From positions 33,978,001-34,042,000 of the forward strand of contig OX485804.1 in the NCBI GenBank assembly GCA_950295325.1: DNA of 64,000 nucleotides. Direction: 5' to 3'. Shown one piece after another: positions 326-43,200 of this stretch. Within the stretch, counting starts at the first letter, position 1. Each line of letters opens with the position of its first letter. A program made the position numbers and the translations under genes. Under the pieces are notes generated by a model. It was not told where the DNA came from. It worked only from the letters and a program-made list of their open reading frames with translations, and did not search any database. Origin of the DNA: Polytrichum commune (Eukaryota; Streptophyta; Polytrichopsida; Polytrichales; Polytrichaceae).

Positions 326-604
326 ACCTAGAGTCTTGCTACTTCTTAACCCATATTCATTGTGGACTAATGTAAGTGAGCTTGATTACAAAAGGAGCAC
401 CTTCTCTCTTTCAAAATTCACATATGCTTCCACTGTAAGTAAAACTCTAGTGAGAAGTAAAAATTTCTTACTTTTTGGCGATTTTGAAAAATAATTAATT
501 TTATATTCGGCAAAAAATGCCAATAATTTCCCAAAATTTTCGGCATCTATTTTTAGAATTATTTTGTGCCGAACCTGCCCTTAACGTACGGTATTGAGCG
601 TGAA

Positions 605-835
605 CGTGGAAGGAGGGCAAATGTGGAGTGTAGAGGTGGAAAAAGGGTTGGATCCTTAATGTGGAGGTGGAAGGAGGGCGGATCTTGAGTGTGGAGGTGG
701 ATAGAGGGCTGGATCTTGAATATAAAGGTAGAAAGAGGGCAGATGTAGAGTGTAGGTGGAAAGAGGGTTGGATCTATAATATGAAAGTGGGAGTGGAATG
801 AGGGTGGATCTTGAATATGAAGGCCGGATCATCAA
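605..835. repeat. Degenerate GGAGGTGG minisatellite
   Basis: About seven degraded units of roughly 30 bp with the theme GTGGAGGTGGAAGGAGGGC then GGATCTTGA. Units differ by many substitutions, so this is old. Confidence 0.7.
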
Positions 836-1185
836 ATTGATAAGAGATTATAAAGATGTAGAACAAAATGAGGTTGGCATTTGAGAAGATAACAATATAT
901 GCAAAGAATGATAACTCATTTCATGACCACTACTTAATGATTATGGGGAGCAGAAGTGATATGGGAAGAAACAACTAAAGCTCTACAATATTGATAGGTT
1001 TCAAATCTGAAGTTCATTCTTGTAATTTATTTGAATATATGTAATTATATGATGCAATCATGTCCTCAATTTTTTTGAAGAAACAATACTCTTGTCTAAA
1101 GGCATATCTAATAGATTATATTATCAACAAATAAACAAAAGTTATTGAAATTAATTATGAAAGATAATTATATGGACAATTTGGG

Positions 1186-1253
1186 CAGACTTAAGCTGAG
1201 GGTGATGGAGTAGGGCGTTAACACCCTACTTCATCACCCCCAACTTAAGTCTG
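1186..1253. repeat. 68-bp near-perfect palindrome
   Basis: CAGACTTAAG at the left mirrors CTTAAGTCTG at the right. The arms continue inward through GGTGATG/CATCACC to the centre GTAGGGCGTT / AACACCCTAC, with only a few mismatches. It shares its core with the tandem array at 3.8-4.7 kb. Confidence 0.85.
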
Positions 1254-1352
1254 TATAAAGAAATACAAGCTCCATTGAATGTCTGCGAATGTTCCCTGAC
1301 CGTAATGGATACAAAAACAAACATAAGCGAAATGTACCTTACATGTGGCAAT

Positions 1353-1422
1353 TTTGATATCAGTCGGGGTCGCGAAGGTAGGGCGTTAACGCCCTACCTC
1401 TTTGACATCAACTGATGTCCAA
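1353..1422. repeat. Second long palindrome with perfect 22-bp core
   Basis: The core at 1377-1398 is a perfect palindrome (GGTAGGGCGTT then its reverse complement). Arms extend outward through GATATCAGT and ACTGATGTC with mismatches. It belongs to the same palindrome family as 1186-1253. Confidence 0.8.
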
Positions 1423-1439
1423 ACAACCGCATGCATGCA

Positions 1440-2005
1440 TATTCTTTGGAAGCCAATTTTTGGAGCACAGTTTTAATCAATGAAGTAGGGCCTCAACGCC
1501 CTACCCCAGCAACCCCAACTAAAGTGTATAGTGTAACAGTACGAAGCAAGCTAAAAAATTTAAAAAAATCCAAAACTCATAGATTTTATAATTCTTAGGT
1601 AGAGAGTACCTCACGCATGTCAACCCAAAATTATTTGATTTTTTTCGTACATAGACTTCATCAGCTTGCGTACTTGTTAAAAAAATCAATTTTTTTTCTT
1701 CAAACATCAAATTACAAGAATTTTTCAAAAGTACTAAAATTTGCGACATTGTAGATTTCTACAAATCTACCCATAGGCTACATTTTAGAAACTTTCAAAA
1801 TTGTTTTCTTCTTCATGAGTGTAACTTATTCTAAGATTATTTAAGGATTCAAATCATTTATTTCCATAACATGTTATAAGTTGTCTAGTTTTTTAAAATT
1901 TTAAAATTTATTTTTATCAATTTTAATTTCTCATTTCATTATATAAGCTTTCAGTTGGTTATCATTAGGTGGGGCGTTCACATCCTACCCCTTTGCCATT
2001 AACTA
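1440..2005. repeat. Two more degenerate palindrome-family copies
   Basis: Cores GTAGGGCCTCAACGCCCTAC at about 1486 and GGTGGGGCGTTCACATCCTACC at about 1969 are mutated versions of the same palindrome, each with partly matching arms. The DNA between them is AT-rich with no supported gene. Confidence 0.6.
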
Positions 2006-3700
2006 TCATATGTCTTTTTTTGTTTCTCAAAATCGTCTCATATTGTTTTTGTAGCATTAAACACACCTGTAGAGTAAATTTTTGGGCTATAGTCTGAACC
2101 AAGATTTTGAACTGAGCTTTTTGAGGAATAGATGAAAATGTTGGACTATAGTCAGATGAAAGTACTTTCGTAGCGGTATTAGCAACCGAATGGCCTGAGA
2201 AAGGAGTTGCAACCGTCCAAAATGAAGAGGGATAAGAGACTATCGCTGGAGAGAGAAAGCAGGCCATAATCAAAGAGTTTTCCAGGCAATAGGCTAGAAT
2301 AGTCGTAATCAGCGAAGAATGTGTAGAATCGGCCAAGTGCCGCAAATTGAAAGACATTACTTCAACTCTGTGATAGAGTGCAGATTAGACATTGTAATCA
2401 GGCTATACCCACAAAGTAATTGAGTTATTTTACGGAGATGTAAGTGTCTGAAAGTGACAAATTGGGTGCAAAGAATGTTTGCACTGAATAGATTGAAGCG
2501 GGAGATTAGAGCCACAGTGTGAGTGAGAATCCAGGAAATTAATTGTTTGATAAGCAAGTAGTCTGATAGAGCATGTGCAAGTAAAGGCATCTTGGAATAA
2601 GAACCGATACGGTAGGTCTGAGAGACAGGAAGGTCTGAGAGAGATGAGAGGTTAAATAAGCCATTGAAGAGAGGAATAGAGTGATGCCGAAGCAACCAGA
2701 ATATAACCAGATAGCGTTCAGATACAAAGAGAAGACGCATGGATGCTATGTCAAAGATTAACCTAATTAATATTGTCGAGAGCGAGTACGAGAGCAAACC
2801 TACGGCCAGGAGCGAAGTGATGTAAGAGAATGCCACAAAGCTTTAGCGCAATTGTGATACTATGAAATAAGAGAAAGACAATAACCATTTGAGGAAGTTA
2901 GCGACCTGCGAGAGAGAGGTTAGCAAGAGAGAGGGAAGAAATTAAGAAAGACCATTGCCAGCGAGAGAGACGCATGAACACCAAGAGTCAATTAGGCTTA
3001 GTGTGAGAGAACGGCTGAAAGCAAAGGTTATTAGAGTGGAACGGAGTGTAGTTTAATGATGAGAGCCGAGACGTGCTAATCCTGGATGTGAGAGAAGTAT
3101 GGGCTGAGAAGTGTAACACACATCATTACTTAATATGTGAAATTGCCGCATGACATTGAGATGATCGACTAAGAAATGAGTGGTTGATGTTAACATTTGC
3201 TTTAAGCTAATACATAATATAGCCATGTATGTTTGTTTTATCTTGAATTGTGCAAAGATTGCGGACCAGGATGTTATGTGTGATGGTTCATGAATGAGAT
3301 AAGTTCCTAAAGGAATATTAATGCAAGCAAAATAACTAATTGAACCCTTGAGTTTAATGAAATTAATTGAATTAGAATGGATGACATTGTATTGTTGTTT
3401 TATGAAAGCCATAAGAGACTAACCCCAATAGGATGAAAATCCATTGGAAGCCTATTGCCAAGATACAAAAAGACTATTGCCAAAGCTTTTGAGCTTCACG
3501 ACGGAATTAGAAAGTATAAAACTAGAGTAATAGGAGTCGTCAGACAGGACAGACCCACGCAGGACTCAAAGCACCAATGAACCATAAGAGTGGAAATTAA
3601 ACGTGAGGAAGAGGAAATAAAGTAGTAAAAGACCTAGGTTGTTATTAGAGTCCTAATCCAATGTGACATTAACCCTTATAGACACTATCTCAGTCCACTT
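1965..3700. other. Purine-rich unassigned block
   Basis: The plus strand is rich in GAGAG, GAGAGA and AGCGA. This opens three long minus-strand frames (3412-3053, 119 codons; 2836-2357, 159 codons; 2357-1965, 130 codons), the last two joined by TAATG. Their products are Ser/Leu-rich, as expected from the complement of a GA-rich strand. They show no motif, so I do not call them genes. The block may be a degenerate repeat. Confidence 0.4.
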
Positions 3701-3774
3701 GGAGACTTAATCCTTGGGTTTGTTGTTTTAAGTCATACTAAAAAACTACCTACAACACCTTTAATTGGCTTTCA

Positions 3775-4700
3775 TAAGATAAGGCGTTAACGTCCTACCC
3801 TTTCGTTATATGTTTTTTTTAATTTTGCAAAATTATTTTTATTTTTTACGCAATGCATACACCTTCACTTGCTTCTCATTAGGTAGGGCGTTAACGCCCT
3901 ACCTCTTCACCTTCAACAGTCACATGTTTTTTTGGTTTTTCAAAATTAATTAATGTTGTTTTTTAGCATTACATATACCTTCACTTGCCTCTCATTGGGT
4001 AGGGCGTTGACATCCTACTCCTTCCTCTTCAATTATCATATATTTTTTTGGTTTTGTAAAATTATTTCATCTTATTTTTTAACATTGTATAACTTCACTT
4101 GCTTCTCATTAGGTAGGGCGTTAACACCCTACTCCTTCACCTTCAATTGTCACATGTTTTTTTGGTTTTTCAAAATTATTTAATGTTGTTTTTTAGCATT
4201 ACATATACCTTCACTTGCCTCTCATTGGGTAAGGCGTTGACGTCCTATTCCTTCCTCTTGAATTGTCATATGTTTTTTTGGTTTTGCAAAATTATTTCAT
4301 CTTATTTTTAAACATTGCATACACCTTCACTTGTTAACGCCCTACCCCTTGGCCTTCAACTGTCACATGTTTTTTTGGTTTTTTAAAATTAATTTGAGGT
4401 TGTTTTTTAGCATTACATATACCTTTACTTTCCTCTCATTGGGTAGAACATTAATGTCCTACTCCTTCCTCTTCAATTATCATATGTTTTTTTAATTTTG
4501 CAAAAAAAATTCATGTTCTTTGTAACATTATATATACCTTTAGTTGCGTCTCGTTGGGTAGAACGTTAATGCCCTACTCCTTCCTCTTCAATTATCATAT
4601 TAATTTTGCAAAATCCTTTCATGTTCTTTATAATATTATATACACCTTTAGTTGCCTTACATTAGGTAGGTAGGGCGTTAATGCCCTATCCCTTTTCCTT
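3775..4700. repeat. Nine-copy 115-bp tandem array built on a GTTAAC-centred palindrome
   Basis: Cores lie at about 3780, 3882, 3997, 4112, 4228, 4333, 4441, 4557 and 4672, with most spacings 115-116 bp (range 102-118). The best copy (3882-3903) contains the perfect palindrome GTAGGGCGTTAACGCCCTAC. Around the core are CACTTGCYTCTCATT on the left and CYTTCACCTTCAATTRTCA on the right, then an AT-rich spacer with TTTTTTTGG and TAGCATTACATATACC. The 76-codon plus frame across two units is a by-product of the repeat. Confidence 0.88.
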
Positions 4701-4925
4701 CACTTCTCATATATATATATATTTATTGTATTATTATATTTTATTACATTATAAGAACTTTAAATTCACTCTCATTGGATATGTTGTTACCACTGTACTC
4801 TATCATTTTCATATATTTTTAATATATTTTTAATATTTATTACATTTTGTTCTTATGCATGGAATTTATTTCGTTACTATCTATTATATATACTAAATTT
4901 TTCTTTTGTATTTTTAGGTGGAAAT
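4701..4925. other. AT-rich spacer before the decayed gene
   Basis: No gene seen. It contains ATATATATATAT at about 4710 and ends with TTTTTAG just before the ATG at 4926, which could be a splice acceptor or only an AT-rich leader. Confidence 0.4.
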
Positions 4926-7900
4926 ATGGAAATTTCGGAAACCCAACATTTTTCTTCTTCTACAAATGTTAATGATCGTAAACTACGACTTTCTGATACA
5001 AGTCTTTATGTTTCCACTCAACCTAGAATTGAAAAGACTACTCAATGTAGGACGATGAATGGCAAATAAAAAAATTCACGATGAAATTGTTTCTTCAAAT
5101 TTTCATGATGAGGTACTCGAAGCTTCTGAAGACAATGATAATTTTTCCTATCAAGCTAAGAATTTTGATAACATGACCAAATGGAAAGTGAATACTAGCG
5201 CTATCATTAGTGAGTTGCATGTGGCTCATTTTTGTGTGCTTCTTTATTATATGGTTGCAATGTCCGTTGTTCGTCCTGCTCTGAAGACTGACATTCTGAA
5301 GCTGGAAAGCAAATTTTTTCAAGGCTATCGAGATGAAGATTGTATATTTTATTTGTTTGTAAATAATGAGACGGCTTCTCTCAAGATGTTACTCCTCACC
5401 TTCTTTATTCACAGCCTGCTCATTAAATAAAAGCCAATGACATATGTAAAGATATGTTTCAATCTGATCATGCCCTTTATTACTTAAAAAACAAAATGTT
5501 TTTGTTTAGGACGGAAATCATAAATTATTGGCATGGAATCCTATATTGATGTAGTGCATAAATATTATTATTCAAGACATGTGCATGCCAATTCATATAT
5601 TTTGGATCCAAAAGATGAGGTCCCAAGTCTTTTGAGCGCTATGCACTACACAAATAAGTATGTTTATTTCCCTTATTTTATTGAATTTTAAAATTTTCTT
5701 TTATGATATGTGTTTCAAAATTATTATTGAATATTTTGTGTTTGTTACAGATTACCGAAAATTCTCATGTCTCTACCAACCTTATACACACTCTTGTTCG
5801 TATGCAACATATTGGGAATATGCCTCTTTTATTTATTTTTAAAAACAATTTCATGATGATGTGTATAAAAAATGTCCTGTGAAGCCCAAAAACATGTAGT
5901 ATTTGTAGACTTGTAACGTTCTCTTGGACCACATGTACATTGTAAGTATACTACTCGTCTTTTCTATATTATAATCTTTTAGTAAATTTTATCAAGTTCA
6001 ATCTATTTTTCTTATGTGTTTTTTTGTTGTTGCATATTCTAGTAACAATTTGCGGAAGCTGGAGACTTGGGACTCCGAAAATTCAACGAAATCATACTCC
6101 TTAAGCAAAGAACTTCAAAAGTTGTTATATAGCATTGCTATCACTGAAGCTATTAAGGAGAAACGTCATAAGCTATACATTTTTTATTGAATAACTTCAA
6201 ATTTCCGACCCTATCTTCAGTCATGATTCTCTTGAACAAATGTTCAACTTCACTATAACAAATCTCTTACTATTGAAATGACACAAGAAAAATCACACCG
6301 TCTTGTTATTTATATTGTTGATCCTAAATACAAGGTTTCTTAGCTAAAATTGTGGAACAACTTTGTCTATGCTAGTGATTCTTTATATTTTCCTAGATCA
6401 TCATTTTCCAATATGGTGTTTAATGAATGGTTGCACAAAGCTTCATTCTAGGCCCAGCTAAAAAAACATGTTTTTCAAGAATACTCTGATATTCTGGCAT
6501 GATTATGTGATATGTATTCTTCGACTTTTCCGGCAATTGATTCATTATCAAAAGATATCAACAAATGAAAGAATATCGATATGAAATTTCTCTTGCATCA
6601 TGAATTTCAAATTGGACTTATCAAGAAACAAAATTCATAAGAGGGTCAACCTTTTGAGAAACTTGGTTCGAAACGAATAATATTCATTTATTTTTTTTTG
6701 TAGATTTTTTTTTAGTGTTGCTATATTTATTTTCTATTACATTATATGAACAAATACATATAAATGATTAATATGATGTATATTAATTGATAATAAATCT
6801 TTTTGATTTGTATTGATTTCAAATAAGTACCTCACAAAGTTTCCAGATTTTATGAAGATTTGGAAATATACATATTCTGAATATTGCATGTACACCGCAA
6901 AAATCCTTCAAGAATGAACTAGGCCTTATATTTGACAATTGTGAATGGTACCTCAATTGTCCCAAGGCCAATACTCTTATAAAATAATTATTATCGTGAC
7001 AATCTCTTGATACTATGCCAATTAATCCAAAAGATACAGTGGATCTTCAATCACAGATTGGCAAACTCAAAATCAACCAAGATACCGGACTACCTCCACC
7101 ATTCAAATCCTGCAAAAAATCAAAGAAGGTTGATGCACCACAAACAAAAATAACATCTAAAACTTCCTCCAAGCATGATCATGCATCTTTTCCTTCTTCA
7201 CGTTCAGATCTTTTATTTTTTCCTTTTATCTTACGTCCAATTTTTTTAATATATATCATATTTTTCTTTTCCTTAAGAAACTATTCATTCAGCCTTTGAT
7301 AACATATTTTTTTTCTACAACATCAACAATTTTACAACCTTTTGCATCAATCCAAACACAACTGTATTTCAATTCTAGTGTTGATGTCATTCATCCGGGG
7401 GTCACTGCAACATATAGAGAAATGATCATTCCTAAGAGTTTGTCTTTGGCCAACCAATGAGTGCAAACAAATCCAAACATTCTACTGGATCTCTCTCCAA
7501 TCAAGATTCGGGACCACCTAAATGGACTCAAGTAATGGAATTCATCAAACTTGTATTCACATTCTTTTCTTTCAATTCATTTGAAAATCTTCTATTATAT
7601 ATTGATTTCAATCAATCTAATCAAAATTATACTTATTTTGATATTTTTTGTATCATATATTTTCAAAATTCCGATGGTCGTGAAGATTCTATTACAGGTT
7701 CGAGAAAGACCAATGTTATAGATCTCATTTTTACTGATACCCAATACATTGCCATCTTGGAATGTTAAACAAAATAAGTATTTCTTACATCAATGTCTGT
7801 TGCACACGAATATCTTTCAGATGATGGTGTCATTATTATTTTCAGTATTGTTCATCTTGAAAATTAGAAGAACTCGATACATGCCTCAATTAAGCACAAA

Positions 7901-8880
7901 TGATGGCTTGAAAGACAATATATTGCATCAATGCGAATAATCATGTTGTTGATCCAGATAATCCAAGGCAAACAGTAAGTATCTTACCAATCAAAATTTG
8001 TAATATTTTTAATTTAAATATATTTTTTAATTTAAATATATTTCTAACATATGTTTTACTTAATTGCAAAGCAAGGTTTTTGCATACATTATTGCTCGAA
8101 GATAAAATGATCCTACGAAACGTCAACAAAATTTTAAATTTTGAAAGTTTGAAGGCTCTGAAATGGACGTATCTACTACGAATGTAGTAATCAATATAGT
8201 GACAGATAATGACCTTATCATGAAAGATAAAATTATGGGAAGGACATGGAGAGGTGGATGGCAGAAAACTCCTCGTTTTTTTTCAAATCTTTATGGAATG
8301 TCTCTCTAAAAAATGTAGTCGTGTTATCGACCTCACCTGCTGTTCAAGAGGTTCAATTTTGGCATCTCATGCATGTGGTCATCACCTACTTGCATTTGAG
8401 GGAGACCAAGAAATATTTGACTGTGTGTTAAAACCTATTTTTAATAATGTTCCAAAATATAACGTTGAAGGCCCCCAAATCGGAGTTGCTGATGATGATG
8501 TTTTGCCAGATGAGGAATTAGTGTCTTTTGATTGTGAGTAAGTTATAGTGTGGATTTTTCAAATTTATGTATACAATATCAATCATATTACATGTTGTTT
8601 TGCACTCAGAAAACTTATCAAGAAATCAATATTTGTTTTTTTGTTTAGATAACATGAATTACTTCGTAGTTCTACTCTTAGTCCTCGTTTGCCACCTTAT
8701 GCAGAAGCAGTAACAATACATATTGCTAATACTTCAGAATCATCATATGATTCTGTCACCAAAAAACCTCCACCCTTCAATTTCGTCCTAGTCCGAATGG
8801 AGAAGTTTATAATGACATGTAGAGATTTCTCTCTTTGTAACACAATGTATGATTCCAATCTATTGTTGGAATATACATAA
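4926..8880 (+). pseudogene. Decayed ParB-like / beta-class DNA-methyltransferase-like gene
   Basis: Coding pieces in different frames lie along the plus strand, split by AT-rich introns and lesions. 4926-5069 opens with an ATG but soon changes frame. 5059-5430 carries GYRDEDCIFYLFVNNE. Around 5455-5655 the pieces LKNKMFLF, DGNHKLLAWNP, YIDVVH and LLSAMHYTNK follow, with frameshifts near 5508 and 5542; DGNHKLLAW is like the ParB/sulfiredoxin motif DGxHRLxAW. 6052-6660 is coding-like with several in-frame stops. 7457-7768 contains VIDLIFTDTQY, resembling methyltransferase motif IV (DLIxTDPPY). Then AHEYLSDDGVIIIFS, and at 8254-8541 RVIDLTCCSRGSILASHACG with LLAFEGDQEIFD, resembling motif I. Motif IV before motif I is the beta-class order of N4/N6 amino-methyltransferases. 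DTQY replaces DPPY, so catalysis is unlikely. The product is broken and probably not made; family assignment is inference from motifs. Confidence 0.55.
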
Positions 8881-9234
8881 CTTAGCCAAGTCTATACTAT
8901 GTCTTCTTACACTCCTTAACCTCGGGTAATGTCACATCCTTGTACTTCTCTAAAGTCTACCCGACCGCTTTGGCCACGCATGCCTTCAAATATATCCCTC
9001 TTGTGAAGCGAGTCCTTGCCGTCGACTCCACACTACTACATAAGTTCTCGCTTATTGATTCCATGAATTACACAAGTTTAAGTATTCATAAATATTTGTC
9101 ACTTATTGTAGTTTTATCCTCACGCTTCAACCACTATATTGGTTTAATGAACTAATGGTTATCCCTAATGGAACCAAGCAAACTTCCTTTGTTCCCCTAG
9201 ACTTTACTAGCTAATAGTGTAACTTTCCCATTAC

Positions 9235-10050
9235 TTCTCGGAATATCCTGAAATTTTATCTGTAACTAGGGAGACAAAGCAAAAAAACATCTCACCAATT
9301 TGTGAGCCTATCCCATTTTCTGTCCGACAGTTATGACCATTTTAGTGTGTTAGTCTACCCAAATTTCAGAATGTCATAACTTCCTCTCACAAGCTCCAAA
9401 AAACTTCAAATTTTGGGAGTAATCACAAAAACTAATTGTTTATGACCCCCTGAAATTTCAAACTATTTTCATTTTCTGCCAAAACGTTATGGCCTTTTTA
9501 GTCTGCAACTTTTAAAAACACTTCAGAATGATATATCTCCTTCTCATCTACTCGGAATGACTTGAAATTTGTACCACGACTAGGAAACCTAAGAACAACG
9601 CATCCCTCAAAATTTCATGTGTTTCCAAGCCTCTGTCCAGGAGTTATGCCCATTTCAGCTCGAAAATGTAGGCGAAGTTCAGAATGTCATAACTTCCTCT
9701 CACAGGCTCCAAAGAACTTCAAATTTTGGGAGCAATCACAAAAACTAATTTTTTATGATCCCCTGAAATTTCAAACTATTTTCATTTTCTGCCAAAACGT
9801 TATGGCCTTTTTAGTGTGCAACTCTTGAAAACACTTCGGAATGATATATCTCCTTCTCATCTATTCGGAATGACTTGAAATTTGTACCACAACTAGGAAA
9901 CCTAAGAACAAAGCATCCCTCAAAATTTCATGTGTTTCCAAGCCTTTTTCCAGGAATTATGCCCATTTCAGCTCGAAAATGTAGGCGAAGTTCAGAATGT
10001 CATAACTGCTGCTCCAGTACTCCAAACATCCTCAGATTTTGACCATGTTC
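9235..10050 (-). repeat. 313-bp tandem repeats inside the LTR-like block
   Basis: The phrase CAGAATGTCATAACT recurs at 9367, 9680 and 9993, exactly 313 bp apart, with closely matching flanks (CTCCAAARAACTTCAAATTT, GGCCTTTTTAGT, GACTTGAAATTTGTACCA). About two and a half units are present. The 88- and 83-codon plus frames here are repeat by-products. Confidence 0.88.
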
Positions 10051-10390
10051 ATATAAACAAGTTGTTTACTAACCCTTTAAATTTCAACGAAGTATATTTT
10101 TCTGCTCGGAAGTTATGCCCCTTACAACCTAGACTACTCAAGAAATACCCAAGAAATATGAACTCAAATACTACAACTTGAAGCCATAAAATATCTTAAA
10201 ATTATTCACACCAAAACTAATTCTAACAAGAGGTCAAGCCCTCTTCAAGGCCAACTAGCCTTGGCTTTCCAACTAAAAACTAAGCACACACATGTGCTCC
10301 AATCTTGCTTCCAACACACCCACACTTATAACACGTGGGGTGCCTTGGAGCATGAAGGGAAGAGAGGATGAGTGAGGGAAGAATGAGGGA

Positions 10391-10398
10391 TTATATAG
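10391..10398 (-). promoter_or_regulatory. TATA box of the LTR-like block
   Basis: The minus strand reads CTATATAATCCC about 340 bp into the LTR-like block, the expected place for a pol II start that would transcribe toward lower coordinates. Confidence 0.4.
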
Positions 10399-10741
10399 TG
10401 AGTTTGAGGGGGTGAGCACCCTCAAGGCTCACGATAAGCCCTCGAGATCTCCTCCTACTTTATAGGCTCTAATCCTATCTCCTAAGCCTTCCTCCCTCAA
10501 ATGATCAACAAGGATCCTAATTCAAACATTTAACTAACCTTGGCTTTCTAACTACCACACTTTACCAAGGTTTGTCCTTCTCCTACTTAAATTCACTCCA
10601 CAAAAGCCTAATGCTTCAAACTAAGCTTTCTTCAAGCTTCACTCTTTTTATATTTTTGTGAATAATCATAAATCACCAAAACACCACTTGTAATGTTTTG
10701 CAAGTGTTAACAACTAATGTGGGCATCAATTTGGGCTCACA

Positions 10742-13700
10742 TCTGGTCACAATTCAGATTTTTCGGACAATATGATTATTTCCAAATACTTAGATATTGA
10801 GGCTATATAGAGTGATACATCTATTAGCTGTGATAAATCATGAAATGCAGTTGTATTAGTTAATTTATTTGCAATTGAGTGACCTTCATTGTGTTTTGTG
10901 ACACATTTTGATATTGTATATTTTTTATTCATTGGATGATTGATTTCAAATACTTTTTATTTGCAAAAAAAATGTCTCCATTCACTAGGATGCACATAGA
11001 AAGTTTTATATATTTTTTTAAAAAAAAATCATAAAAAAAATCATTTATATAAGGGAGGTTATTCTAAGAAATAATTTTTAAATGAAATAATTTTTTGACC
11101 TTCAGATCATTCAATTTTTGACCTTCACAATGTATTCAAATGGTATTACATTACATAATCACTTGTGCATTTGTTTCCATGGAAATAGGTATATAGTTTG
11201 GTTTTGCATGAAATAATATATATCATGTTCATTGTAATTCCATTTCTATATTACAAAAATCTAATATTAATAATATTTTCATTTTTGTACATTCAAGTGT
11301 TCTAGGCTCATGGACCTAGGCTCACCGCTCATTGCTCATGAACCTAAGCTCATTTGAGAGTGAGTAAGTTTTAATACAATAATTATTGATTCAATTCATC
11401 CATTTCATTAATTCATTAGTTGATTTCATTAAATTTCATTAGTTCAAGAATCTTCCTATAATTCCAAAATCAATTCGCAATGTATAGGTGTTCAAATATA
11501 TAATATAAATAACGAGGCAAAAGATAGTAACATCTTCAATGCTACTAGCAATGAATAAATTTGGTATCTATTGGATTTCATGTTGTTTGTCCTCCCCACC
11601 CCTCTTATTACTAAACCCCAAAATCACGATTCTTTAGGCCAAAATTCCACGGTTATAGGATACTAGTGGCCCTATGACCAAATATTTCACCTTCCTCACC
11701 ACTCATTGCTCACTGCTCACAAGATAGCACTCCCCCAACGTTATTGAACCAACGTATCCAATGTGGAGTTAATGTTCTCTACTTATGTGTTGGGAGGGAA
11801 ATTTTAGCACGTTGTTTGAATTACAATCTTCTTTCCAATTTTCTTTGGCAGTACAAGTAAAATAAGGTACTTTTAAACGATTCCCCCAAAAAAATTATAT
11901 TACTAATAGGGTGTATTAAAATATAAGCATTTACCTTTATTTTGAAAAATACCATACCTTATAATCTTTTCTGCAAGGTAAATAGCCCCCCAATAAATAA
12001 GTCATGAGCACACGTGTATGCATTAATATAAGAGGGAGTGACCCCCCCCCCCCCCCGGAGCAACATAAATTACTTGGTTTTGCATATCAATGTGATTTTC
12101 AAATGTTTGTGATTTTCCCTTAACAATATCCAAAGTTAGTATATAGATTTGAATCACTCTCACTTCAACTTATGCAAGGTAATGGAGTTGTGTATTTGGC
12201 CGTGCTTGTGTCCATCACATCAGCTCTGCTAATTGTGTTCATTATTGGATCTTAAATTGATACCTTTATTGTGAACGTATAGTCCAATCTTATTGCAACA
12301 CATGCTTCTATTTGGTGTCCAGTCTGAACTAATGATTGTTCATGTCTTTCTCGGGCCTCCCTCCCTCCCTCCCTCAACCTCATTTCTTTCCTCTCATCTT
12401 GTAAATGTCTTGTCCTACTCCCTCTCTCCTTTCCTTCCTACGTCACTCATTTCTTGGGTCTTCACTTGCACTCATATACATTGTCTTTATCAAAGCTCTA
12501 GGCCAAAGTTCAAAGAAAATGACTATATGTTCCAAGGAAAAAGAAAAGGCATCCAGAAAGAGATGAAACATTCAAAAAACCAAAAGACAAGCAACTTTTA
12601 GTTAACACAAAAATTAAGTCAACGGCGCTCTCGATTGTCCAATGAACCCTTCAATCTAAATGCAACCGTCATGATTGTCCAATGATTTTGCACTTGACCT
12701 AATACTAGGTTCCTACCTCAATGTTGCTAGCCTTATCCCTACTTACCATACCATTGGTTGCCTCTTATTCTCATTGGTGCCTAACATCTAATCTCTTAAT
12801 ATTGCATGGAATCCATAGCCTAATAACTTCAAATGGTTGACTATATTTAGACTCATGTAGGTTGAGAGCTTATGGTAAGTTCATCTATTTCTAACACCCC
12901 CCCCAAAACCCTTTTTCCATGACCTACATATTTGGAACTAAATATTCTCTAGGCTAGTGAAATTTTTGTTCATGACAACTTGCTTTTAATTGCACACATG
13001 ACTCTCTCCACATGTTGGTTTTAGGAGTCTTTTGTCTAGTTATAGAGATTAATATATCTAAGTACATGCACATGAGTTCGATATTAGCATAGCACGTGCT
13101 TCATTCCAAGGCAAGCTATGCATGAATATAGGGGTCTATTATTTTATGCTTAAAAAAGATATTGTAGATATAAAATTTTGTGGAAATAGAAATTTTCAAT
13201 TCCAAATTTTTTCTCTTCCATTTGTCCAACTGCAGTTAAAAAACTCCATCACAAAGTGCATCTGGATGAAGTTACGTTAATAACAATTTGGGTTGGGAGC
13301 TACTTTCTCCATCTCAAAATGATTGTCCTACCTCAGAGATTTTTTTTGTCCCAAAATGAATGTCTGGTTTATTTGCCCGGCTAGAAAGTTGAGGCTCAAA
13401 GTCAAATATTTTCATGCCAAACTTTCATCATCAGGATGCCTTTCGACATTGCAACTTTGGGGGTGTTTCGGAATACTTGTTGTTTTTTATTTTTAAATTC
13501 ATACTTACAACTACTCGGTCAACATTCAACAAGCCTTAATCTCGCCAAGGTTTGAAACACGGATATTCATTTTGGGATAGAGGAAGTTATATATATATGG
13601 ATCTTAAATGGTCATTTTTTCCAACTAGCTCACCTTCTTCTAGGATATGAAACTATGAATGGAGAGATCCGAGCATTAGTTACAAATGGACTAGTTGAGT

Positions 13701-15916: not shown

Positions 15917-17548
15917 TCATGTTTGGAGAAGGGGCAATCTCATCCTCCGAATCCGCTGCTCTCTCGGTCCGCGGTCTTCCGGATCCTGGTGTTCCGGAAA
16001 CTGTACTACCCTTCCGGACGCTCCGGATCGGGGAAGGATCGCTTCCGGTGCGTTGTTCTGGATTCTGGATTTCCGCTTGGCGGAACTACCTTCTGGATTC
16101 ATCGTCCGTGAGTATTTCACGAGGATGGGGAGGATTTGCCTAGCGGAGGCGGGTTCTCCGGACTCCATCATCCGGTCGTAGAGATGCGCCTTGTTGACGA
16201 TCTCTGCCGGATCCCCCACCAGCTCCCGGATCCGGCTGAAGACCACTGCCTGCTCCGCGTGGTACTTCCGGATCTCCTCGCTCTTCTGACTCAGCTCCTG
16301 AGTCAAGGCCGCTACCTGCGCGGTGAGGTGAGCATTCTCCATCTTGGCTTGCTCGAGCTCCTTCCTGTCCGCCCTCTTTGCCAATTCTCGGAGAATGTTT
16401 CCGGATCCGCAGTCGTCCAGGGCCTGGTTCGCTCCTCGGACGATGTGTTCCAGCCGGTAGTACTGGTTTTGTAGGTCCTCCAACCCCTCCTGGACCCGCT
16501 TGAAAGGATTTTCCGGAAAATCCCAGGCGGAGAGATCCACATTCCGCCAAGTGGTCTCCCAACTGGGTCCGGCTTCCGGATGATAGTGAGGGGGAGGAGA
16601 GCTTGGCCTCTGGAGGGTCGGTGGCGGACTTCCTGGTGAAGAGGGAGGGGCTTCCGGAATGATGGGGTCGCTGGAAGTCTCCGTCTCGAGGTCTCCAGCT
16701 TCCGGATGGAGCTTGTAGGTGACCTCGTCCGCTGCTATCGTCAGCAGGTCCTCCTCCTCGGCCGTGATGCAGTCGAAATGCTCATAGAGGTGCAGAATGA
16801 AGGGGGAGAGGAAGGAGGGTTTCCGGCCTATATGGGGGAGGGCCCGCCCTACTATCTCTTGAATGATCAGCCCCCAATTCACTAGCCGGACTCCGGACAT
16901 AGCTCCGAACAGGGTGTTAGCCATGGTAAGGCTAATCCGCTTCGGCTTGTCCGGGTTTAGGATGGGCAGGAGGAACTCTAACACCCTCCGCTCTCTTAGG
17001 TTCCGGCAGTTCCCGGGGTGAAAGCCGTCCTTCGGGTCCGCGTCCCCTCTAAATTTTCCGGCAAACAGGCCATCGCGGCGGCCGGCCCATCCTTCCGTAA
17101 TTCCCCTCGGAAACCCGTAGACCCTATTCCAGACATCCGGAGTCCGACTATCCGGATCCCTCCTCTTGGTTCCTAACCACTGATTTCCTCTCTCGAACTT
17201 GAACTCCCGGAGAGTATCTTCCGCTCGGAGGTTCCAGGGTTTGGCGAGCAACCCCGCGCAATCCATAACCCGGAGATCCTCCGCTAGCTCTTGCAACTCC
17301 CCGTCCTCCCTCGGAATTGCAGGGATGAGGGCTTTGAGCGGAACCGGGATGGGTTCCCTCCGATCCTCTTCCCGTGCTTCCGGCATTTTTCTCCCTTCTC
17401 TCAATTTCCGTCTCAACTGCGGAAACTCTCTCCCCTCCGGATTCCCTCTCTTCCGCCTAATTGCTACAGAGTCCCGGCAAGCCAACTGCCGGTGACTGGA
17501 AAGTGCGGAGTCCCAGCAATCCAACTGCTGGCGGCTCGAAAAAAACAC
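15917..17548 (-). CDS. Transposon-type protein with coiled coil (543 aa)
   Basis: A single uninterrupted frame of 543 codons. Residues 1-110 are basic and Arg/Glu-rich. About 115-290 form a globular part (VYGFPRGITEGWAGR, FHPGNCRNLRERRVLEFL, KPKRISLTMANTLFGAMSG, LSPFILHLYEHFDCIT) like the gag-like or putative plant transposon proteins common in plant elements. About 295-330 is Pro/Ser-rich, 384-443 is a strong heptad coiled coil, and the tail is basic. It has no zinc knuckle, protease or polymerase motif. I do not know the exact family. The start is uncertain: the first ATG is at 17548, but an ATG at residue 54 is also plausible. The same DNA holds open antisense frames, caused by the high GC content. 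Its intactness suggests fairly recent insertion. Confidence 0.6.
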   Translation of the reverse strand: MFFSSRQQLDCWDSALSSHRQLACRDSVAIRRKRGNPEGREFPQLRRKLREGRKMPEAREEDRREPIPVPLKALIPAIPREDGELQELAEDLRVMDCAGLLAKPWNLRAEDTLREFKFERGNQWLGTKRRDPDSRTPDVWNRVYGFPRGITEGWAGRRDGLFAGKFRGDADPKDGFHPGNCRNLRERRVLEFLLPILNPDKPKRISLTMANTLFGAMSGVRLVNWGLIIQEIVGRALPHIGRKPSFLSPFILHLYEHFDCITAEEEDLLTIAADEVTYKLHPEAGDLETETSSDPIIPEAPPSSPGSPPPTLQRPSSPPPHYHPEAGPSWETTWRNVDLSAWDFPENPFKRVQEGLEDLQNQYYRLEHIVRGANQALDDCGSGNILRELAKRADRKELEQAKMENAHLTAQVAALTQELSQKSEEIRKYHAEQAVVFSRIRELVGDPAEIVNKAHLYDRMMESGEPASARQILPILVKYSRTMNPEGSSAKRKSRIQNNAPEAILPRSGASGRVVQFPEHQDPEDRGPREQRIRRMRLPLLQT

Positions 17549-17620
17549 AACATCACCACTCGTTCTCTCAACAATTTGCCTCTTGTGAACAAGAAAAAAA
17601 AGTGGGAAGGAGAAGGAAGG

Positions 17621-18478
17621 GACCCTTAACCCTTAAAAGAGGTTGCATGGGATGGGTGGTGCGCGTAGAATCTCAGTATTTTGGTGTAGAGGTGCATTTG
17701 GTGGTTGATATTTAGCCCTACTTTAGTGCGACTACTGTGCAACTTTTTTGTGGACGTGGGTGTGGAAGTGTGGATGATAGCTGTGGAGTTATTTCTTGTA
17801 ATGGTTATGCAGAGTTTTATTGGCACATTTCTAAGTGCGAGGGGGTCCGGTGTGTTGTGGAAACTGAATACGTATCCGTAGTTGGCGTATACGGGGTGGG
17901 TTGGGGGGTGAAGGTACGCTATATTTAGTACGTGGGCTCGTACTGGTAGGACGATGTGACGCCAGACAGGGGGTCCTCCGGTGGGTTTGGTAACCGGTGC
18001 GGCCTGTTCTCTACGGTAACCGTTGTGTGAGGGGACCCTGTGGGCAATGGGAGTGTGTCACCTGGACGAATGAATAGCGGCTTCTGAACCGACAACGACA
18101 ACCGACAACGACAACCGACAACGACAACCGACAACGACAACGAATGAATAGCGACAACGACACTACCGGCCGAAGCGGTCATCAACGGCCACCAGAAAAT
18201 ACGGTGCGTCATCGCGTTGTTCGTACCCGCAGAGCTCAACCGGTGTATGTATTCTCCCGCGCAGCGTAGAAATACTCATACGACATCACTTACATCGACG
18301 CCGACATCGCCACACAGCTCCGAAAATTCATTGGAAAATCAGGTTGCCTGGCTCTAGGCAGTGCCGAGACATCTCCAGTTCGGAGCTTACACTAATTCGG
18401 CGAATAATGCACACACGCAGCCCAATAGTAGAAACCGTAGGCCATTTTGGCCTGCAACCTCCTTTAAGGGTTAAATAT
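17621..18478. repeat. Inverted short repeat around 800 bp
   Basis: The reverse complement of 17621-17650 (GCAACCTCTTTTAAGGGTTAA) matches 18453-18474 (GCAACCTCCTTTAAGGGTTAA), and both continue into CCTTCC-rich DNA. The block between may be an inserted or inverted segment. Function unknown. Confidence 0.55.
18088..18141. repeat. ACCGACAACGACA minisatellite
   Basis: Four to five copies of ACCGACAACGACA in tandem, within the upstream part of the CCGGAT-rich element. Confidence 0.85.
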
Positions 18479-33886: not shown

Positions 33887-34439
33887 TTGTTGCAGACTGT
33901 AGTAATAGAGAAAACCTCGGATCGACTTCGGCTTAAAAGTCCATTTGCAAATCTCTTGCGTTTTCAAAACTACGTGAGAGCTGAGCTTTGTCGACGCATT
34001 CGTTTGAGACGTCCAGGGCAGTTGTTGGATTCGACCTTTAAAAATATACAACGCCGACCTGACCTTCAATTGCACACAGATGGAGGACTATCCGGGACAA
34101 AAGCGTCAGCAGGATATGTTACAGTTCTCCCTTGCATCTTCTTTTGCAGCGGCGATCGTAGTAGGTTGTGCCTTTCATTCACTGAAAGCCGGCTGGTACA
34201 CATACTTGATCGGCCTATTCTGGACATGGTTGATCAATATTGTAGATTGGGATTACTTCCTATGCGAACCTACATCTTGGAGTGAAGGAAAGTATCTCGA
34301 TATCAACGGCTTTTGGGACTTGGAAGTGCGAGACAGAATCACCAGGCAACGATCGCAGATAACTATGAGTGGAGGGCCTCCTAGAATGACAATCAGTGCA
34401 AGAGAATTGCCGGAGCTCGCATTTAAGAGACCGTGGTGA
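33887..34439 (+). pseudogene. Possible RNase H remnant
   Basis: The frame 33887-34285 (132 codons) has a basic stretch then LQLHTDGGLSGTKASAGYV. TDGG-x-ASAG resembles the start of retroelement RNase H domains. The frame shifts near 34130, after which 34080-34439 reads on with Trp/Tyr-rich sequence. No full catalytic set (D, E, D, D) can be traced, so this is a broken copy at best. Confidence 0.35.
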
Positions 34440-37242: not shown

Positions 37243-40200
37243 CTAAACATCATCCAAAAGAAACGATCTTGAGTTTCACTGGTGATGGAAGGGAGACAAC
37301 GCACAGTCCTGATCTGATGACACCACTCCACTCCTTACTTCTGAATTCTGTGCTAATGATTTTAGATAAAACAATAGGCCAACGGCAATTACATGCTTTA
37401 GGAGAATGAACCCTAAACATAGTAGAACTTTCGTTAACAAATGAAACTGTTTTAAGCTCAGGATTAGTCAGGTCAGTCCAAATTTCAATTGAGATATCAG
37501 AAAAACGTTCTCACACATGCATAACAGATGATCAGTTGAAGGCCCACAACACAAGAGTCCTCTGACTAGTAATGGAGTTACCTTAGCTTCCACAGCAGAG
37601 GTCATCTGCGGAGTCTTTGATTCTGTGATGCTGATGTCTTTTAATGACCGCAAAAACACTTCCTCCCATGGCATCAACAAAAGCAGTCCTCGGCCCTCCT
37701 TACCAGCCCTTCCTGTGCGACCCAGTCGATGAATGTACTGCTCTCGTCCAGCTGGTGTTCCTACCTGCCAAAAATGGCATTGAGGTAGTCTAAAGAAATT
37801 AGCATGCTGAATTGGTCTACATATAGACCACTACCCTAATACCAATACACATTCCTTTCACCACACTGTGCAGTATCACCTGAGGTATGGAATATGATAA
37901 CCAAGTAACCATTGATATTTCTCTGGAACCAGGAGAACAGACAGAGATCATTGTGAGCTGCAGAAATACAGGTTTGCTTCCAAGTGGTTTAGAGCAGAAG
38001 GCAGGTGGTTACCTGCAACACAAGTGTCACGTCGGGGTAGTCTACACCTCGAGCAGACACATCTGAGGTGAACATAATCACCCCGCCCTCGTGCTTCCTG
38101 AACTCATCGGACACTTTGGTACGAAATGATTGTGATTTTCGAGAGTGGATTTCCAGAGTGTTCAGGCCCATTTTATTATACAACTCTGCAAATAGGGCTG
38201 TGACTCTGGCAGTTGTACAAAACACTAGCACCTGCAGCGTGAAGAGGTCAGGCAGGCCAAAGGGAATGTGACATCAGTTCCAGATTGTGATACCTATAAC
38301 ACGCCTCCCAATATCACATTATAATGTGCACTTAAACCATGACATCAGTCCTGTCCCTGTAATTCAAAAGGAAACTTCACAAGTTTGCCCAAAAGCAAAG
38401 CAATGCAATGCCCAAAGGCGATTAAATTAAGGAAGAAAAGCAAACCTTGAAATTTGGCTCTTGAACAGCATGATCCTTTAGCAAAGCATAAATGGCAGCC
38501 AAATGCATCTCTAATGGCAGCACAAGAAACTCTTGTTTAACCTGAATATAAAAAAAAAAATCAAGTTCATGATCAAGTGCATTTACGTAAGGAGATTAGA
38601 AATAAGAAAAAGAAAAAAAATATGTCATGGGCAAACAATCGGATTTCTGATAACTAGTCCAGATTTAAAGAATATATAATATCATTTTACTCAGTATGAG
38701 ACAGGTTCGTGCAGAGTATCCAAACAACCTTCTCTACAAGTATACTTTTCTCTATCATTTCAATGAGAAGTCTACCAAATCTGTACCACCTCTTCCACCA
38801 TACATGGTGCTCCATGACAAAGATGTGCACACATGCTTATTCAAAAAAGCAATGACAATTACAAAAATTTGCCAAGGCTCACCCTCTACAAACATATGAA
38901 CAGACTTAAACAAATGTATTTGGTCAATTTTTGAAGATGTACAGTATCTTGACTTTCAAGAGTTCTCAAGCAAGCCATCAAGTGGTGACACCATTGATTT
39001 CTGTATCACATGCAATCACATGTGAGGTCCTACCTTGATATGAGTCTCTTCATCATCAACACCAACTGTGTCAATGTAGGCGTAATCTTTCTTGAGTGCA
39101 ATTTGGCACATGCTCTTTACCTGCATCAGACATGCGAAAGAGGAAATGGTGAGAAACCACAGCCTGCTTGTTCCATTTTGCAATTGCACAAGTTGAGTCA
39201 AAATCTACAAGTGCACATTCTTTGTTTAAAATTTTGAACTATTGTGCCATCAACTCCGGTTTGCATGCTGTGAAGGAATATACAGGATGTTCTTGATCCA
39301 TTTGTCCTCTATGCAATAACAGAGACAGGTTTCTAACAGAACATTACTACATAAGACTTCTTGAGCTACGCAAAGATTGTTGTGTTGTTTTCAAAAAGTG
39401 CACTTTAAAAGCTCCATACATGACACAGGAAGGAATGCACAAGAGAACCTCATTGGGCACAGTTGCTGAGAAGAGAAGTGTTTGCCGCTGCTGTGGAAGA
39501 ACTTTAATGATACCATCAAGACTTTTCCGGAATCCCATGTCCAGTAGTTGATCTGCTTCATCAAGAACCAGAACTTTGAGATTCTGCAGCTGCCTCCTTA
39601 CATTTGGGTTTGACTGGATGTGGTCAAGCATCCTTCCTGGCGTTCCCACCAGAATCTTCACAACAACAACATGATTTACTTAGTTGAAAAATGTCTCACA
39701 AGTACAAACAGCACAAAAATGAAGACAAGGAAATACATAACAGCTTCAGCAGTTTTAGAGATGCCAAATTCTTGAGACCTATTATGTAATGGCAATCACA
39801 ACCACTGGGAAAAGCCAATTGTGTGACTAGTTGTCAACAAATGTGCAAATGATTCAACAGACTTACTTGACATGGCTGCTTCTCAAGCCTCTTGGTCTCA
39901 GAAGCCATGTTGGTCCCACCAATCACAACTTGCACCCCTAGACCGCGTTGAAAGGTGGTGAGCATCTTAGCTTCAGCAGCAACTTGGCTGGCAAGTTCCC
40001 GAGTAGGGCAAATCACTACAACGTAGATAGGACTGATCCCCGTTTGAGGGTTTTGAGCTTTCAAAATAGATTCAATTGCTGGCAACTGCACACACACAAA
40101 CAAATTGAATAAACATGTCCTCAGCAGAATTGGGGAAAATCTACACATGAATCTGACACAACCTAAATATTCCACACATTTATTATACGAACAAAGCTTC

Positions 40201-43200
40201 TTCATGGATAAAGGCCAATGAGAACAGACAACTAAGAAACACATGATATCTATGCAGCTCCTCTTGCCAGAGAAGGATGTAAGCTTTCAGTGCCTGTTCG
40301 ATACTGACTCAAAGACAACAGGAACACAAGTACAAGTAAGAGTCTTCAAGGAATGTACCAGGAAAGCAACAGTCTTGCCAGTTCCAGTCTTTGCCTTAGC
40401 AAGCACATCCTGACCTGCAAAATTCAGATATTCAATATCACCAGAAGGCTGTATACAAGGTCACAATCAATAGCATCTCTTTTAAGGAAATACACACATT
40501 TAAAGGCTTCTACAAATTCTACAACAATCAGTTTCCTCATGCAGATTACATACCCTTCAAAATGACTGGTAGAGTAGCATCCTGAACCACTGTCATGGTG
40601 TCAAATCCAGCCACCTCATGTAGGGCCTTGATGGACAGTGGAGAAATCTTGAAGTGATCAAACCTGTTAATCCATTAATGGAACAAACAAAACATTATCA
40701 ACGTACTGTTACTCAGCACCGCCAATCACTAAGTAATGAGTACTGCTCGAGATACACTAATAGCCTTCTTCATAACTAGTAAAAGGGTGTAACAAACCCC
40801 TGATCTTCTCAGTGAAGGCACCCATAACCTAGGAACTTCCTCTTGATCCTAGAAGGATGATTACAAGGAGCTGACATGTTATGCTATTTCCCTCTCCTAA
40901 GAGGCCATTAATTACCTTGTTTTAGATAAGTGAGATGCAAGTGGCTTCTCGATCACAAGAGGTTCTTCTTCTTCACTGCTCTCTGGTGACTCTTTGTGTT
41001 TCTTGTTGACTGTCATATCTGTATCCACGAATGCAGCTTGTGGTGCACCTCGTCGTTTGAATGACCCTGCAATAATAGAAAGAAAGTAAGAAGAAAAAAA
41101 AATCAGGATACTAATACCATCATACAACTAACAAGGCATTTGCCATGAGCGAAGGGACATGTGCCAAGGCTAATAAGATATCTAGTGCTGTATTTGGTGC
41201 ATGACTTGTAAAAAAAACAAAAACAAATCAGTTTTGAATTTGCAGCTTGAATTTCTCTGAAGTACAGCAACACAGCAAGTGGCAACCACTGTACTATGTT
41301 CTGCATCATGCCTTTAAATAGGTAAAAACCATTCACCGAATGGAGACCTGGCATGAGAATAGCGTACAGATTGCCAGTGTCTACAAGTTTCTCTTCATGA
41401 ATTATCATCTGTGGTCTAGTGAGAGGTTTTGGCTTACGACTCGATTGAAGTCCACCATGTAAGAAGATTTTGCTGAATTGATTGGTAGTAAGCGCATGCA
41501 CAGGGCAGCCAAATAGCAATGAATATTCTGGCCAGTTTATATTCCCCTGAATGGAATGTCAATGGAGAATGATGAAATGGAACCCAATTCCAATTACCCT
41601 ACTCACTACTGTACTGTACTAAACCTTCATAACAGTTTATTATGCAGATTCACAAACTTTTATTGAGCATCCCAGTAGACACTGCACGCTCAAAGATCTC
41701 TCCAAAGAACTTATGAGGAACTTTTGGAAGGCACAAATGCTCTTCAAACTGACATCCATGATTATTTTGAATCTAACAATGTCCTTAACAATTCCCATTG
41801 ATATCTCATTTTGAGCATGACTGCTTTACACTTGCTTAAACTATTGAGAGCTTGAGGCTCGAGATTTAGTCAAGCTCTCAATAGTTTGAGCTCCAGATGA
41901 AAGCCTGTCAAATCCAAGTATCAACCTCCCAAAAATTGCACAGGTCAAGCTCTCCACTCGAGCTCTACTGTCAAGGAGCGTAAGAAACTATTTGCATGGC
42001 ACAAAAGGGTCTCGAAACTGACATCCATGACTGTATTAAACCCCAACAACACTGTCCTCAAAACTTACTACCGGTAGACACTGCACGCTCAAAGCTCTCT
42101 CCAACGATCTTGTCAGGGATTCTCAGATGGCACAAAAGGGTCTCGAAACTGACATCCCTGACTGTATTGAATGTCAACAACGTTGTCCTTAACACTTACT
42201 AACATTAGACACTGCACGCTCGAAAGCTCTCTTGAAAGAACTTATAAGGAATTCTCACATGCCACAAAAGGGTCTCTAAACTGGCATCCATGACTGTTTT
42301 AAACCCCAACAACGATGTCCCTAGCACCCACCACCAGTAGACACGGCACGATCAGAGTTCTCTCCAAACTCCTTCTACGGAATTCTAACATAGCACAGAG
42401 GGTGTCCAAATTGACATCCACAACTGTAAGGGGCATTGTTATTACTGTAGACACTGCACGCTTAAAACTCTCTCAAAAGAACTTAAGATTGACATCCGAA
42501 TTGACATCCATGACTGTATTAAACCCCAAAAACAATGTCCTCAAAGACTCACCACCGGTGGACACTGGACGCTCAAAGCTCTCTCCAAAGGAACCACTGT
42601 GAATACCAGCCTTGGGTAGAAACCTCGCAGAAGGCCGCGCATCCTGCCTGCTGAGCTCCACAGCGCCATCCTCACCTGTCCACAAATCCTCCGCTCCACG
42701 CTTCTGGAACCTATCAGCCAAAGCTTTAACCCTCGCATCGGGGCTCAAGGGAGGGAAAGGAGCCATGGCATTAGGGGAAGCTCGTTCCCATGGCTTCTCC
42801 AAAACAGGGGACACCGCCATAACCTCTGCCCTTCGCCTGTCCTCGTACAACTGCTTCTCCCTCATCAACCTTGCCTTCTCATTTTGCTTCTCCTTCTTCT
42901 TCTGTGCCCTCTTCCACTGCCACTTGCTCACTCCCCCTGGAAATGTCCTTGGGCCTCCTCCCATGGCCCTTGCGCCATCCACCATGGTTACCTCCTCGGG
43001 TCCCATTGGCCTCAGCTTCAACCCTAACCTTGTGCCCACCAAAAATGATGTCCCGGAGCTTTGCAATGGGGATCTATACACTGGAACACGAGTAAGTGCA
43101 AGCTTAGACACGAACTTTCCTACACTCACTGATGTTCTAGCAATGTATGGCTTGGGGTATAGAAGTGGCCCGGGCATGGCACGAGACAGAATTCTTGCGC

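Follow-up and report, generated by a model that had tools for sequence, protein, structure and literature searches.

A decayed accessory gene with ParB-like and methylase-like parts in a DNA transposon of Polytrichum commune

The 64-kb stretch of the Polytrichum commune genome analysed here (C2:33978001-34042000; hereafter the window) belongs to a 407.8-Mb assembly composed of seven long contigs of 42-78 Mb each and 57 minor contigs sharing about 1.7 Mb. Positions 4926-8541 of the window hold, in decayed form, the second gene of a DNA transposon, and this copy is dead. The initial annotation had described a dead plant gene at 4926-8880 that joins a ParB-like motif to a beta-class methyltransferase-like domain, and had taken it for a member of a family that was perhaps mobile or once acquired by transfer. 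The decayed frames agree with a dead copy. The gene is not, however, a stand-alone acquisition, and its surroundings are larger than assumed: the element covers 592-11735 of the window, ends on the right at 11735 (...AGATAGCACTCCCC) and continues past the left window edge, beyond which its 5' end is located. In blastn comparisons, the window copy aligned to approximately 11736 from 592 (locus L189) and from 1220 (locus L190); it shares 80% with L190 over 4197-8755 and 76% with L189 over 4333-8755. The features of this copy are listed in Table 1.

All peptides quoted in the initial annotation are encoded on the plus strand and in the order given. Translation of the window placed DGNHKLLAW at 5510, VIDLIFTDTQY from 7715 and AHEYLSDDGVIIIFS from 7802, all in frame 2, and RVIDLTCCSRGS from 8320, followed by LLAFEGDQEIFD, in frame 1. 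Position-specific matrices for three methyltransferase blocks were obtained from 88 phage and viral beta-class methyltransferases collected by searches starting from E. coli YhdJ, of which 82, 59, and 73 sequences yielded the respective blocks. When the 64 kb were scanned in all six frames, the motif I block was ranked first (11.3 vs. 4.4 for the next match), the motif IV block second, and the strand after motif IV sixth. The latter two share one frame and are 28 codons apart, compared to 29-45 in the training set. The best IV-V-I chain of the window, at 7715, had a score of 33.2, which was not reached in any of 1500 first-order Markov randomised windows (best score 25.4); with a 25-sequence version of the matrices, 0 of 300 randomised windows were as good. 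The summed length of the four longest plus-strand open frames in 4900-8900 was above that of all 1000 randomised sequences; the corresponding counts for this region were 76/1000 for the minus strand and 47/1000 for the longest frame alone.

The profile searches that had been suggested as a check gave a divided result. Relatives of the family match N6_N4_Mtase, while the window pieces, taken singly or stitched, matched no Pfam family up to an E value of 10. Searches with window pieces revealed a single PHROG of unknown function (E 0.071) and, in PDB, a designed protein alone (E 6.4). In the phage search, the methylase part had no match and the ParB region had two (E 2 and 4), with the annotation viewed around the first only. 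Viral contigs searched with two window pieces contained no relatives, in a search that would catch close relatives only. A hidden Markov model (HMM) of the 88 sequences gave marginal results with the stitched window pieces: among 200 shuffles, 1 outscored the stitched piece as a whole, 3 the motif-IV part, and none the motif-I part. With a 25-sequence HMM, nothing rose above shuffles; when the window halves were compared to the methylase HMM, 1 and 4 of 500 shuffles were as good. The AlphaFold model of 8224-8538 alone was uninformative (mean predicted local distance difference test score 36). The proof of methylase ancestry was taken from intact relatives, because the window copy is too worn by itself.

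A genome search with the motif-I exon as query yielded at least 150 scored matches from 466 first-look candidates on contigs C1-C7, the window copy included; about 115 of the 150 matches listed contain no stop, as counted by eye. Three groups were recognised. Group A makes up the bulk, with loci that are mostly 43-51% identical to the window query and mostly have open frames. Over 4.4-4.5 kb, three of its members (L174, L176, and L177) have 99.1% identity with L175. Group B consists of the window copy and five relatives (L145-L149; 66-69% identity, 1-4 stops each), and group C of two divergent loci with open frames (L184 and L185; 38-39% identity). The terminus GATAGCACTCCCC was exact in 15 of the 20 fetched loci, and had one mismatch in L192 and three in L189; no match to it was found in L184, L185, and L187. 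The DNA beyond this common 3' end differs among the 13 loci compared. The family is a mobile DNA transposon with many copies, some of them recent, and a sharp 3' end, as its suspected mobility had implied.

Intact copies of the accessory gene encode RPALKGDITKLEADFFNGYRDGDRVFYI...KMFFIWDGNHRFFAWKNYID...LLTAMHDIN and, after an intron, TENSHVSTNLVHTLYRMQNIG; the middle exons are followed by AVDLVFLQFPDG...SILSDDGVLIVFS and RVVDLTCSTGASILATRACGRHLLAFEGD. One joined representative each of groups A and C scored 33.6 and 23.2 bits, respectively, against the 88-sequence methylase HMM, with nominal E values of 3.8e-8 and 5.5e-5 (hmmsearch, Z set to 24736) and with 0 of 500 shuffles as good in each case. 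An hhalign comparison of three rows with the methylase profile, made without shuffle control, gave 97.2%, an E value of 2.8e-11, and 165 columns. Scored apart, both halves supported the assignment in group A, and the motif-I half only in group C. N6_N4_Mtase was the top Pfam family in three of five methylase-exon searches, in the same profile region and below cut-off (E 0.13 for L169, 0.06 for L184, and 0.012 for L185); the two methylase exons of L191 had other weak matches. Above the cut-off, this family was matched at C1:9662150 and C4:44111740, by 577-amino-acid open frames that cover profile positions 1-216 in one case and 164-216 in the other. These two members could be intact. Motif IV is located ahead of motif I in the window, L169, L191, and L184, in line with the beta order recognised initially. 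At the level of the family, the sequence evidence securely places the ancestry of the methylase-like domain among bacterial beta-class N4/N6 amino-methyltransferases.

Minor contigs also carry N6_N4_Mtase genes that exceed the cut-off (C10:4592-5212, C10:15117-15353, and C12:29682-30278); these are possibly bacterial contamination of the assembly.

The catalytic motif (D/N/S)PP(Y/F/W) is absent from the window copy, from 12 of 12 group-A loci, and from L166, L184, and L185. At the position of DPPY, all 12 group-A loci have QFPD within open frames, the further locus L166 has QFSD, and the window copy, from which alone motif IV of group B is known, has DTQY. In L184 and L185, also with open frames, this position reads DIPK, an assignment based on manual alignment and on the position ahead of the motif-I part, because the motif-IV half of group C taken alone is unsupported. 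These replacements do not fit the initial view of DTQY as simple decay of this copy. The S-adenosylmethionine loop, for which FxGxG is expected, is degenerate in group A (DLTCSTGAS, with R for G in L191) and in the window (DLTCCSRGS), and nearly kept in group C (DWHCGVGGS). Across the copies read from three groups, the catalytic site of the methylase part appears to be lost; methylation may persist in members whose methylase is recognised by Pfam. The ratio of nonsynonymous to synonymous differences (pN/pS) in group A was 0.18 for the ParB-like exon (9 of 12 loci; L179, L182, and L183, with a broken upstream frame, are omitted), 0.36 for the motif IV exon, and a mild 0.53 for the motif I exon (12 loci each). 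These values are indications that group-A exons evolve under constraint, because the pooled pairs are non-independent. The first run gave 0.26 for a middle exon and 0.19 for the ParB-like exon; three stretches with indels gave no value.

The ParB-like part carries WDGNHRF, with the DGNHR motif, in 12 of 12 group-A loci, and DGNHK in the window copy. The window pieces showed no similarity signal to the IbrB/YbdM ParB family, and the intact exon a weak one. The kinship of the accessory protein with ParB appears weak.

Upstream of the accessory gene in L194, on the opposite strand, GFMADSAQANWNAVR...RERTCLFHW and a second exon are encoded. By reading, not by profile, this partner gene looks like a DDE-transposase. 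Genome-wide, it had at least 150 scored matches from 1729 candidates. A divergent partner match was located upstream of at least 88 of the 150 methylase matches, at 5.4-14.7 kb (median 8.1 kb); among the matches listed, none was on the same strand and one was convergent. The window copy is one of 62 methylase matches with no listed partner. Its partner gene is placed on the minus strand outside the window, with both genes reading outwards from the shared spacer. The methylase match C1:9662150-9662797 (+) is 9.1-9.6 kb from a divergent transposase-like match at C1:9652578 (-), and the locus could represent a member of this transposon class with an intact methylase.

Palindromes are present in the spacer that separates the two genes: CCCTGTGCGTTAACGCACAGGG in group A and forms resembling GGTAGGGCGTTAACGCCCTACC in group B. 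Their core, GCGTTAACGC, was found 57 times in 12 group-A loci (0.024 expected), six times in six group-B loci (0.006 expected), and twice in the window (1383 and 3888; 0.006 expected). The tandem units in the spacer of the window copy carry intact or worn GTAGGGCGTTAACGCCCTAC-type palindromes, the perfect core being that at 3888. Groups A and B have different outer arms, which nevertheless retain most of their symmetry (5.42 and 4.67 of 6 pairs, respectively) and are perfect in 33 of 57 and 1 of 6 sites. Arm symmetry at other GTTAAC sites was 2.78 (18 sites) and 1.80 (5 sites). The 18-mer CTGTGCGTTAACGCACAG occurs 502 times in the genome, and its reversed control 0 times. Among the first 50 places listed, 44 are between paired gene matches (by eye), one is 4.4 kb upstream of an unpaired methylase match, and five are near none. 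One spacer, C1:4875631-4879257, holds 14 sites. Symmetric change of both arms would be expected under selection for a dimeric binder, and the array may represent candidate parS-like sites that the accessory protein binds.

Table 1. Features of the transposon copy in the window (window coordinates)
Feature	Position	Strand	Basis or remark
Remnant of one DNA-transposon copy	592..11735	+	blastn to related copies; 592 is the leftmost aligned base
Perfect 24-base palindrome, core GCGTTAACGC at 1383	1376..1399		Repeat search
Probable nested insertion	2069..3754		L187, L188, L189, and L190 align on both sides without the insert
Tandem array of ~116-base units, spacer before the accessory gene	3808..4712		Tandem Repeats Finder, repeat search, self-blast
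Decayed accessory gene, start	4926..5430	+	Two frames, 4926-5069 and 5059-5430
ParB-like segment with DGNHKLLAW	5431..5658	+	Three frames; L189 has WDGNHRLLAW
Intron, acceptor ttgttacag, worn donor	5659..5747	+	Frame joins NK to ITENSHVSTNLIHTL
Next exon, end of ParB-like region	5748..5870	+	L191 frame 4420-5430 carries TENSHVSTNLVHTLYRMQNIG
Decayed middle and linker exons	6041..7560	+	blastn to L190 and L189
Methylase-like motif IV position, DTQY for DPPY	7715..7753	+	Rank 2 in window
Strand after motif IV, LSDDGVIIIFS	7799..7858	+	Rank 6 in window
Motif-I exon, RVIDLTCCSRGSILAS...LLAFEGDQEIFD	8224..8541	+	Rank 1 in window; query of the genome search
Second nested insertion	8756..10743		L187-L190 and L192 align on both sides without the insert
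Conserved 3' terminal stretch, terminus CACTCCCC	11446..11735	+	81% to L175, 88% to L192

The start of the decayed gene corresponds to the intact ParB-like exon L191:3917-4429, and the junction equivalent to the intron also separates two frames in intact L191. The first nested insertion is flanked by a candidate 6-base repeat, ACACCT, at 2063 and 3755; its limits are approximate, with both edges within repeat units. For the second one, a candidate 5-base repeat, GTCAC, was seen at 8755 and 10746, and a 313-base tandem unit (95% alike) is present within it at 9365-10007. Elsewhere in the window, a GC-rich open frame of 571 amino acids (15920-17632, minus strand) is gag-like by eye and matched no solid Pfam family, with ZapB alone below cut-off. 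An exon of the SPC12 signal-peptidase subunit, a host gene, was identified at 34008-34436 (plus strand; E 8.7e-10), and a DEAD-box RNA helicase exon at 39837-40286 (minus strand; E 6e-8).

The dispersed copies, their 3' end, the gene pair, the methylase ancestry, the absence of DPPY, the constraint in group A, and the palindrome array are best explained, in our opinion with reasonable probability, by a two-gene DNA transposon with an accessory protein that recognises the palindromes and marks the element. The protein would bind through its ParB-like part, mark or clamp the element that encodes it, and act as a sequence-specific anti-silencing or transposition helper for its own family. In group A, the methylase fold, devoid of DPPY, could be a binding or competing domain instead of an enzyme. 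The working mechanism, by analogy to VANDAL/VANC, would be self-recognition and anti-silencing.

Several observations weigh against this explanation, besides the limits given above for the pN/pS values and for motif IV of groups B and C. No 5' terminus, terminal repeats, or target duplication were seen in the stretches examined, which stop short of the 5' end, and no inverted copy of the 3' end was found in the fetched stretches, which exclude the left end. The two partner exons of L194 had no fitting Pfam family up to an E value of 5, the MULE transposase domain included. The core GCGTTAACGC was absent from the fetched group-C stretches, L192, and L193. The motif-IV half of group C was equalled by 23 of 500 shuffles when scored alone. 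As to ParB, the initially described order, with a DGxHR segment before the methylase, stands, and membership in the ParB family is less well supported: the intact exon did not match Pfam ParB_N (PF02195) up to an E value of 5, hmmsearch gave 4.6 and 6.0 bits (3 and 1 of 1000 shuffles as good), and hhalign gave a probability of 12.8% (top of 40 shuffles, 1.4%). None of the five PDB matches of this part up to an E value of 10 is a ParB.

Among the alternatives, the palindromes could be autoregulatory operators of a divergent promoter, or transposase sites, with an accessory protein that only represses or helps. We consider this possible, though not probable; the sites are indeed located between two divergent genes, but 14 of them in one spacer are many for a simple operator. 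The present data do not separate this alternative from the self-marking accessory protein that we prefer. It is rather doubtful that the elements have a partition-like system, in which a ParB-derived, non-catalytic methylase-fold protein would coat the element from the GCGTTAACGC arrays and block host methylation, with family specificity determined by the arms. The symmetric change of the outer arms between families would then cause each family to recognise only itself.

We regard it as unlikely that the accessory protein is an active amino-methyltransferase acting on its own element, with an altered motif IV in group A. Such activity was proposed for algal elements (PMC12477816), and the 577-amino-acid open frames at C1:9662150 and C4:44111740 would suit it. 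A rotifer enzyme of the same class, however, became inactive after replacement of SPPY by APPA (PMC8885841). Groups A, C, and the window copy have QFPD, DIPK, and DTQY where DPPY, SPPY, or NPPY is expected, and CSTG or CSRG replaces FxGxG of motif I in group A and the window.

Large viruses carry ParB-like and methylase genes, but an origin of this DNA as part of an endogenised giant virus is highly improbable and was rejected, given at least 150 matches scattered across the genome, a single sharp end, a single linked gene, and no viral-contig relatives in the above search for close relatives. Chance matches in AT-rich DNA, with which the lack of Pfam and fitting PDB matches for the window pieces would agree, are refuted almost with certainty by the randomised windows, the genome-wide relatives, and the methylase HMM scores of their joined representatives.

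The accessory protein can be compared with several known systems. To our knowledge, VANC of the VANDAL elements has no kinship with ParB or methyltransferases, which distinguishes it from the present protein, the activity of which is predicted only. VANC binds family-specific tandem repeats and removes silencing marks in Arabidopsis (PMC10398659). Common to both systems are an extra element-coded protein and short family motifs in noncoding tandem repeats that diverge fast between families. Bdelloid rotifer N4CMT also is an amino-methyltransferase of the bacterial beta subtype that a eukaryote has acquired, but it is an active host gene product with a chromodomain and intact SPPY (PMC8885841). 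The N4-type DNA methyltransferases MpDN4MT1a/b of Marchantia likewise act on plant DNA, a likeness noted without sequence comparison, but are encoded by host sperm genes (PMC8566409). A fusion of ParB_N and N6_N4_Mtase in a viral contig (L067:2841-4019) has the same domain order as the present protein; it differs in its intact DPPY and FLGSGS, and its Pfam ParB_N score is 24.5 bits vs. a cut-off of 26.3. Reference 50 of the paper on algal transposons, a 2011 chapter on eukaryotic DNA methylation, may treat land plants as well.

The closest resemblance is to algal DNA transposons, which have a gene for ParB and methyltransferase opposite the transposase (PMC12477816). Judged by titles and abstracts, this was the only paper found on such proteins; the words ParB and methyltransferase were not found in the accessible text of PMC13317346, and nothing was found on palindrome arrays of such elements, with no search aimed at palindromes. 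The architecture of ParB and methyltransferase is not new, because it was published for the algal elements (PMC12477816). In both cases, a ParB-like and an N4/N6-type methyltransferase domain are combined in one protein on the strand opposite a transposase or, here, a transposase-like gene; in Polytrichum, the linked divergent gene is observed, and its identity as a transposase and the kinship with ParB are putative. The algal methylase was predicted to be functional, in contrast to the absence of DPPY in the copies read here of three groups. The present family has at least 150 matches in one genome and a palindrome array in its spacer; palindromes, a loss of the catalytic motif, and such a copy number are not mentioned in the available part of the algal study. 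Compared to that part, the conserved loss of the catalytic motif and the candidate parS-like array are new. Groups without the catalytic motif but with open frames suggest that such proteins need not function by methylating the element. With at least 150 matching copies, some of them recent, and family-specific candidate sites, this function is directly testable.

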